Below are positions 27,380-28,314 of a stretch of DNA of 64,000 nt, piece after piece; within the stretch, counting starts at the first letter, position 1; the number at the start of each line of letters is the position of its first letter. The DNA is from Hydrogenovibrio thermophilus (lineage in GTDB: Bacteria; Pseudomonadota; Gammaproteobacteria; Thiomicrospirales; Thiomicrospiraceae), in assembly GCF_004028275.1 (NCBI RefSeq), contig NZ_CP035033.1:2104501-2168500 (forward strand), written 5' to 3'. The notes under the pieces are model-generated. The model worked only from the letters and a program-made list of their open reading frames with translations. It was not told the origin of the DNA and made no database searches. The position numbers were made by a program, and so were the translations under genes.

Positions 27380-27841
27380 TCAGCTCTGCCCCATCAATGC
27401 CTTCTGCTCCTGAGCGGCCTGGCGAATCATCGGCACCGCCTGTTCCATATACAACGACGCCTGGTGCACGGTAATCTTGTTCAAATCATGGTAATCCTGC
27501 TGAAATTGTTGTCCGTTCTGGCGCGACAGGTTACGAATCACCTTATGGAACAGACGTTCACCGTCCGCCAAACGTACCATCGTCACCAATTGTTCCGGTG
27601 TCAGTTGTGTTACCAGTTTTTGCAACACGCGATCGTCCATCGACACCAACTTACTCGCCAGCGCACGGTAAGCATTCAATTTTTTATTCAAACCGTCCAT
27701 ATCGGCCGTGGCGTGATTACCCAGCCGCTCACCGACCAGCTTATGCAACAGTTCCAGCGACTCCAGCGGCAACTCGAAAAACACCGGCCCCATTTCCAGT
27801 ATGTATTGACCGTCGTGATCACGTTTGGCGGTAATATCCAT
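27380..27841 (-). CDS. FliG-like small protein, copy B
   Basis: This 153-residue cytoplasmic protein has no signal sequence or membrane segment. An N-terminal part of about 45 residues (EMGPVFFELPLESLELLHKLV) is followed by a helical part (SMDDRVLQKLVTQLTPEQLVTMVRL, then KVIRNLSRQNGQQFQQDY) that reads like the middle/C-terminal domain of flagellar switch protein FliG (LDDR.IQK.LREV, then NMS.R, then a helix ending in a long tail). It is a paralogue of the upstream gene, eight bases away, with AGGA six bases before ATG. No other flagellar gene is nearby; function unknown. Confidence 0.7.
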   Translation of the reverse strand: MDITAKRDHDGQYILEMGPVFFELPLESLELLHKLVGERLGNHATADMDGLNKKLNAYRALASKLVSMDDRVLQKLVTQLTPEQLVTMVRLADGERLFHKVIRNLSRQNGQQFQQDYHDLNKITVHQASLYMEQAVPMIRQAAQEQKALMGQS

Positions 27842-27849
27842 GCGTCGTC

Positions 27850-28314
27850 CTAAATGTATTGCGTATTCTTGTCAAAAAACTCGATTTTGCCCTGACATTC
27901 CAATTCGAACATCTTTTCGACCACCCGTTTGATGGCGGCTTTGGCTTCATCGTTATTCGGTGGTGCCGGATTGGCCATATCCGCATTCAATTGCTTGGCG
28001 AGGATGCCGCCGACATTGCGCAACACCACCTCGTTCAACGTCTCGTCCTGAGCAACCAGCATCAATTTCAATAAATCCTGGTTATCCACGCCGCGTACCA
28101 ACAATTGCACCCCGGCGTCGTCCAGTTCCCGGATACGACACCCCAGCTTAATGTAACTTGTCAGGGTCGAGTGGGTTTGGCCGTGCTCCAGCGCCACCAA
28201 ATGCTCCAGGGTGATGTTCAGCAGTTCTACCGAAAAACGGTCCAGCCGAATCGACGCGTAACCGATATGCACCAACCACTCGTTTTCATGGACTTTTTTA
28301 ATCCCTAACTTCAT
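27850..28314 (-). CDS. FliG-like small protein, copy A
   Basis: This 154-residue paralogue of the following gene has the same N-terminal layout (HIGYASIRLDRFSVELLNITLEHL), then ELDDAGVQLLVRGVDNQDLLKLMLVAQDE, VVLRNVGGILAKQL and a final VVEKMFELECQGKIEF. The last part corresponds to the LEEEGKI ending of the FliG middle/C-terminal domain. A Pro-rich linker (NPAPPNNDEAK) separates the helices. It could be a motor-interacting regulator or an unrelated protein using the same armadillo-like fold. Divergent from the methyltransferase gene; overlapping -10-like elements lie at 28402–28414. Confidence 0.7.
   Translation of the reverse strand: MKLGIKKVHENEWLVHIGYASIRLDRFSVELLNITLEHLVALEHGQTHSTLTSYIKLGCRIRELDDAGVQLLVRGVDNQDLLKLMLVAQDETLNEVVLRNVGGILAKQLNADMANPAPPNNDEAKAAIKRVVEKMFELECQGKIEFFDKNTQYI

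Follow-up and report, generated by a model that had tools for sequence, protein, structure and literature searches.

Two adjacent genes of Hydrogenovibrio thermophilus encode short proteins that resemble FliG, and the question raised by this locus is what such proteins do at a site away from the flagellar genes. The window, by which we mean the whole stretch of 64,000 nucleotides analysed here, carries both reading frames where the original prediction had placed them, on the minus strand and 8 bases apart. Our reading, to which we assign a probability of about 0.5, is that they are accessory proteins of the flagellar motor working at the interface of stator and rotor. The pair, here called genes A and B, is composed as follows:

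27850..28314, minus strand: gene A, first gene of the pair, encoding a stand-alone FliG_C protein of 154 residues (open reading frame, Pfam and model)
28168..28314, minus strand: N-terminal module of A, spanning about residues 1-49 and made of three strands plus one helix (DSSP on the model)
27880..28134, minus strand: FliG_C domain of A, residues 61-145 (PF01706, 40.1 bits; VIA-align)
27842..27849, minus strand: gap of 8 bases between A and B, where the ribosome-site-like AGGA of B overlaps the stop codon of A
27380..27841, minus strand: gene B, second gene of the pair, encoding a stand-alone FliG_C protein of 153 residues (open reading frame, Pfam and model)
27695..27841, minus strand: N-terminal module of B, about residues 1-49, with the strand and helix order of A (lower-confidence model; A-B alignment)
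27404..27655, minus strand: FliG_C domain of B, residues 63-146 (PF01706, 30.1 bits; residue table)

Because of the overlap of this AGGA with the stop codon of A, translation of the two genes is likely coupled. Full-length FliG is encoded at 1,622 kb of the same chromosome and the pair at 2,132 kb, about 510 kb away, with FlhA at 905 kb and FliM at 1,613 kb. Eight window genes around the pair were scanned (DnaG, TsaD, glycerol-3-phosphate acyltransferase, FolB, Methyltransf_28, BacA, NAD(P)H-hydrate dehydratase and PurK) and none belongs to a flagellar family. With FliG, FliM and FlhA far off and the scanned neighbours non-flagellar, the proposed position outside a flagellar cluster is confirmed. 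A phage origin of A and B was considered and dropped, as neither matched a PHROGs family to E 0.01. Three rows of each protein were looked at for a membrane-type hydrophobic stretch, and none was found.

Both proteins, at 153-154 residues, exceed the curated cut-off of 23.3 bits for FliG_C, in line with their description as stand-alone FliG-like proteins. Both miss the cut-off of the FliG equivalog model TIGR00207 (226.7 bits; A 31.1, B 19.4), and FliG_C is the sole FliG domain that a Pfam scan detects in them. In FliG, the N-terminal and middle domains join the protein to FliF and FliM. Since these two domains are missing, A and B are not FliG. The likeness to the middle and C-terminal region of FliG that had been proposed thus stands for the C-terminal domain but not for the middle domain, which found no match; similarly, the terminal motif QGKIEF is present in A but absent from B. 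The N-terminal piece that both were said to share is recovered by a direct alignment of residues 1-112 of A with residues 1-116 of B (23% identity over 121 columns, E 4e-5 in this single comparison), and a profile of A recovers FliG chains at E 5e-8.

AlphaFold models of A (from 41 rows, mean pLDDT 87.5) and B (from 45 rows, mean pLDDT 83.3) both begin with three strands and one helix, after which comes a helix bundle. In the N-terminal module of A, DSSP assigns E3-9, E12-17, E20-24 and H26-42 on the model; this module holds many invariant residues, and G4, K7, E12, W13 and G18 are the same in all 41 rows. The corresponding part of the B model is less certain, with block-mean pLDDT values of 55-69. 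Structure prediction had been suggested as a check on the FliG likeness, and an unrelated fold was not seen: Foldseek searches of the PDB returned FliG chains at all of ranks 1-14 for A (E 1.1e-3 to 0.077, probability 1.00) and ranks 1-16 for B (E 3.7e-3 to 0.048). These E-values are modest; among the matches listed, only FliG chains reached probability 1.00, and the best value for any other protein was 0.63 for A (25 columns, E 2.8) and 0.54 for B (28 columns, E 3.0). Re-examination of the Foldseek matches by VIA-align gave Z-scores of 12.5-15.1 for A with 14 FliG entries, the next row reaching 6.0. One of the chains that match both A and B is 8ucs_H, a FliG domain bound to the MotAB stator (Z 12.8 with A). 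Tight fits to the FliG C-terminal domain have an rmsd of about 1.2-2.2 Å over 77-93 residues; several of the Foldseek fits of B have a large rmsd, the tight ones lying at 2.0-2.2 Å over 77-84 columns. For the N-terminal module of A the whole-model Foldseek and VIA lists contain no confident PDB match, and a known fold is still possible.

As far as it was sampled, with the Gammaproteobacteria covered by a profile search of class representatives, the pair is confined to one family of sulfur-oxidising bacteria. The family set comprises 62 genomes, which are also all genomes of the order in our collection. A occurs in 55 of them and B in the same 55, and in every one of these B adjoins A on the same strand, with a gap between the matched ends of 2-108 bases (median 19). 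The seven family genomes without the pair are G001-G004, which belong to one genus, G015, G039 (79% complete) and G053. Four of the 369 genomes in the class sample (G000, G016, G042 and G053) fall within the family; in the 365 others no pair was found and only long FliG-like reading frames matched, namely frames of 237-361 residues in 21 genomes for the A profile at E 1e-6 and of 327-422 residues in 99 genomes for the B profile at E 1e-5. A pattern-based scan of 84,980 named species genomes yielded 25 loci, all named Hydrogenovibrio, Thiomicrospira, Thiomicrorhabdus or Sulfurivirga, or else Thiotrichales or Gammaproteobacteria MAGs. The usual context is that of the window: relatives of its FolB, B, A and Methyltransf_28 genes occur together in 34 of 42 loci, several of which represent the same genome from two collections. 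Among the remaining eight, L085 is without folB near a contig end and seven are relocated copies. At one locus (L082, genome G020) the relatives of the midA-like, uppP-like and nnr-like window genes are each split over two overlapping frames, as if by frameshift or sequencing error.

K264 is a torque residue of FliG, and position R297 is K in all 21 family FliG sequences that we aligned. For E. coli, contacts have been reported between MotA R90 and FliG D288-D289 and between MotA E98 and FliG R281 (PMC12505986). The joint alignment holds 21 FliG sequences (of 57 in the family), 41 A, 45 B and three fused domains that are described below. R281 is found in 21/21 FliG rows and in neither A (0/41) nor B (0/45, with Q in 36 rows). 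Position 289 is acidic throughout (21/21 FliG, 41/41 A, 45/45 B), position 288 in 21/21 FliG, 38/45 B and 7 or 8/41 A (one row not printed). Position 264 is K in 21/21 FliG and basic in 44/45 B and at least 6/41 A, and position 297 is T or S in all 45 B rows. By this alignment, B has in most rows the charges that face the positive side of the stator but not those that face its negative side, and A as a rule retains one stator-contact charge position (289).

Of all flagellar genes, only those of the stator were found next to the pair. In five of the eight pair-holding Thiomicrospira genomes (G052, G054, G055, G059 and G060, among them Thiomicrospira microaerophila and Thiomicrospira sp. ALE5), the order pomA-pomB-A-B on one strand was read in each case; A lies 727-751 bases after the end of pomA and starts between a 4-base overlap with pomB and 20 bases after it. 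The other three genomes (G056-G058) keep the common FolB/Methyltransf_28 order. PomA and PomB of G052 pass the Pfam models MotA_ExbB, MotA_N, MotB_plug and OmpA, PomB of G055 passes MotB_plug and OmpA, and the remaining copies were recognised as stator proteins by similarity (PomA 76-90% identical to that of G052, PomB by eye). Inspection by eye also places R88, R89 and E96 of G052 PomA at the FliG-facing positions of Vibrio PomA, for which R88, K89 and E96 are reported among the FliG-facing residues (PMC10374538). By a rough estimate, a chance landing would have faced about 2,000 genes with two to four stator operons among them, and the relocation looks like one event common to the five genomes. 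A foreign origin of the relocated pair was considered and rejected: in a 64-row tree (19 of the 41 A, 21 of the 45 B, 21 FliG and three fused domains), built on a short domain and with 25 of 61 inner branches weak, the relocated B copies cluster with two further ones from Thiomicrospira (support 92/95), which makes a move inside the lineage more likely. Genome G054 has a second clade-specific PomA copy on another contig (G054:C30:21727-22479), and one A/B pair was found in it. Divergent from pomA-pomB-A-B and upstream of it lies a gene for a protein whose N-terminus is PAS-like and of Aer type (L121:1-1213, L122:538-1332), recognised by eye only, which would fit a motility neighbourhood.

A second association is provided by a gene fusion. 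In the Sulfurivirga-type genomes G016, G018 and G019, a protein of 292 or 296 residues consists of a hydrophobic part, here called M, followed by a FliG_C domain that scores close to the PF01706 cut-off (24.6 bits in G016 and 23.2 bits in G018, against 23.3). In G016 the A profile finds the fused protein at E 1.9e-15 versus E 3.3e-8 for the FliG of that genome, and in the tree the fused domains fall with A, with mixed support (96/62). Elsewhere M is a separate gene for 179-209 residues (12 loci read), which comes after an ApaH-like phosphoesterase gene in 8 of the 8 loci printed; the copy of the latter in the genome under study is of the Metallophos family. The M gene of this genome is located as follows:

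L159:4686-5303, on C1 at about 1,885.7 kb: M, with relatives in L160-L170

All 14 rows of M that we inspected contain a hydrophobic membrane-type stretch at about residues 40-105, mostly enough for two helices as judged by hydrophobicity. M occurs in 59 of the 62 family genomes, in 55 at E 1e-27 or better and in G001-G004 at 6e-12 to 2.5e-8; no match was obtained in G035, in G053 or in G017, where only the A gene matched. In the class sample, M was found in three members of the family, and three other genomes gave weak matches (6e-7 to 9e-4). Five members scanned against Pfam gave no family above cut-off, and no PDB relative better than E 0.66 was found by profile. Genome G017 thus has A and B without an M match, and M is present without the pair in G001-G004 and G015, which shows that M can be kept without A and B. 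When a protein and a domain form a fusion in one lineage, their separate counterparts elsewhere often touch each other. As an A-like domain is fused to M in the Sulfurivirga-type genomes, A may contact M, and M is perhaps a further unrecognised part of the flagellar motor.

The distribution of flagellar genes has to be read with care. Full-length FliG is present in 57 of the 62 family genomes and the pair in 51 of these 57; the six FliG-holders without it are the four genomes of one genus, G015 and the incomplete G039. No FliG was found in five genomes, four of which hold the pair (G017, G019, G034 and G048). We therefore discarded raw co-occurrence as proof, because 51/57 against 4/5 shows nothing alone, and likewise the use of stator absence to recognise loss of the flagellum: no PomA match at E 1e-15 was obtained in 10 of 62 genomes, most of which have FliG. 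FliG is probably missing from the assemblies of G017 and G019, since G017 has FlhA and FliM and G019 has FlhA. In the MAGs G034 and G048 (86-88% complete), FliG, FlhA and FliM are all unmatched and the pair is present; given that MotA-type matches remain, their flagellar contigs may simply be missing. The only complete genome without FliG, FlhA and FliM, G053 (one contig, 1,932,455 bases), is also without A, B, M and FliG_C. We presume that this genome is that of Thioalkalimicrobium cyclicum ALM1, reported as having non-motile cells and a genome called reduced (PMC4891895). The joint absence looks like one evolutionary event. In G035 two full-length FliG matches (C132 and C260) were seen, which could reflect mixed strains or a second flagellar system.

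Taken as a whole, a role of A and B as accessory proteins of the flagellar motor is quite probable. It is supported by the relocation to a stator operon in part of one genus, by the finding of an A-like domain joined to a membrane-type protein in one chain, and by the joint absence of the pair, M and flagellar genes in a presumably non-motile species. That they act on the stator itself is a more tentative proposal, which we hold at slightly below even odds. On the simplest account, the torque domain of FliG would have been duplicated in this family, detached from the C-ring and extended by a new N-terminal module, and both copies would have been retained to work with stator units, most likely where stator and rotor meet. 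B would use its acidic pair to dock on the cytoplasmic head of the PomA/MotA stator unit, passing no rotor torque; without the arginine that faces the negative side of the stator, it could hold the PomA pair and offer no rotor to turn. A, with most torque charges lost, would partner B and tie it to M, and A and B together would hold, load or brake stator units. Binding between A and B, docking on the stator, contact to M and the sign of the effect are what we infer here, and loading, parking and braking of the stator cannot be told apart from sequence alone. A more specific version, in which a heterodimer of cut-down FliG torque domains, held at the membrane by M, occupies the PomA/MotA pincer instead of the rotor and, as a free mimic of it, controls when a stator unit engages, is doubtful at present.

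Several observations weaken the proposed role at the stator-rotor interface. The linkage to stator genes looks like a single evolutionary event, and so does the joint absence; most loci (34/42) place the pair between FolB and Methyltransf_28 and not beside flagellar genes; and the genomes that have the pair are not simply those that have FliG. The pair and M are also separable in both directions (G017; G001-G004 and G015). No sigma-28-like flagellar promoter, scored against a consensus, stood out above 100 shuffles each in 28 upstream regions (25 of A and three of the stator operon). None of the 41 A rows and none of the 45 B rows has R281, and in A most of the remaining charges for stator contact are lost as well.

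These points leave room for other explanations. Both proteins could sit on the rotor side, binding FliG or FliM in the C-ring as extra FliG_C units or switch modulators and altering rotation bias or ring geometry without contact to the stator, much as in the original prediction that they could tune the switch complex. FliG_C indeed touches neighbouring C-ring domains as well as the stator, and the loss of most stator-facing charges in A would suit such a role. However, the FliG domains that join the C-ring are absent from A and B, and the stator genes are the only flagellar genes beside the pair, so that we regard the rotor side as unlikely and the stator side as more likely than tuning of the switch complex. 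Slightly less likely again is a function apart from the flagellum, in which A and B would serve another membrane motor of the MotA/ExbB/TolQ type or a housekeeping task and their adjacency to pomAB in one clade would be accidental. The housekeeping genes that usually flank the pair, the place of M after an ApaH-like phosphoesterase gene in the eight loci printed, and the two incomplete MAGs that keep the pair with no FliG, FlhA or FliM found all fit this explanation. Against it stand the close placement in the stator operon of five genomes and the fact that the pair, M and the flagellar genes are all missing from the presumed non-motile species, and both MAGs carry the MotA-type matches that leave their flagellar contigs possibly missing. 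For the suggestion that the proteins might be receptors in another system, nothing was found in support.

It could also be argued that A and B are decaying FliG duplicates without function, as they have lost residues that are invariant in the 21 FliG rows. This is very improbable. The listed A and B matches contain no internal stop codons, and the only broken copies are those of B in G044 (split over two contigs) and G048 (contig end). Against the nearest relative, G010, the window genes give dN/dS values of 0.018 for A and 0.035 for B, which indicates purifying selection in this one genome pair, most other comparisons among the five genomes compared being saturated at silent sites. The invariant residues of the N-terminal module also speak against decay.

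With FliG, the proteins have in common the fold of the C-terminal domain, and most B rows keep three of the four residues K264, R281, D288 and D289; unlike FliG, they are without its N-terminal and middle domains, have about half its length and an added N-terminal module, and have lost R281 in 86 of 86 rows. Leptospira interrogans has, besides FliG, a paralogue annotated as 'FliG C-terminal domain-containing protein' (MY479_RS01260, PMC13066512), which that paper lists in an expression table and names in one sentence; proteins named for FliG_C but distinct from FliG are thus annotated elsewhere too. The YcgR/PilZ flagellar brakes, in which one protein acts on MotA and FliG (PMC10140304, PMC12713396), are a proposed analogy only, and A and B differ from them in having no PilZ match (Pfam, to E 1). 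FlgX, a species-specific chaperone that serves stator units (PMC6686046), is again a proposed analogy only, likened by its description. The Vibrio cholerae proteins MotV and MotW are HubP-linked motility regulators of limited distribution outside the core motor, and suppressors of their loss map to FliG (for both) and FliM (for MotV); in contrast to A and B, they are described as membrane-bound, and FliG domains go unmentioned for them in the sections of that report considered here (PMC8789113). Among the literature matches listed, drawn from titles and abstracts and from open-licence PMC papers, none describes a stand-alone FliG_C pair.

Overall, the pair places a known domain in an architecture that is new, and its probable role is in a machine already known. 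No other natural decoy or loading factor for stators that derives from a domain of the rotor itself is known to us. The steps by which a stator unit reaches the rotor, engages with it and departs again are incompletely understood. If our reading is correct, a free rotor domain that binds the stator, is linked to stator genes and is retained in most of the family would provide a direct handle on stator engagement and a ready-made probe of the MotA-FliG contact, and two, perhaps with M three, unrecognised parts would be added to the flagellar motor.
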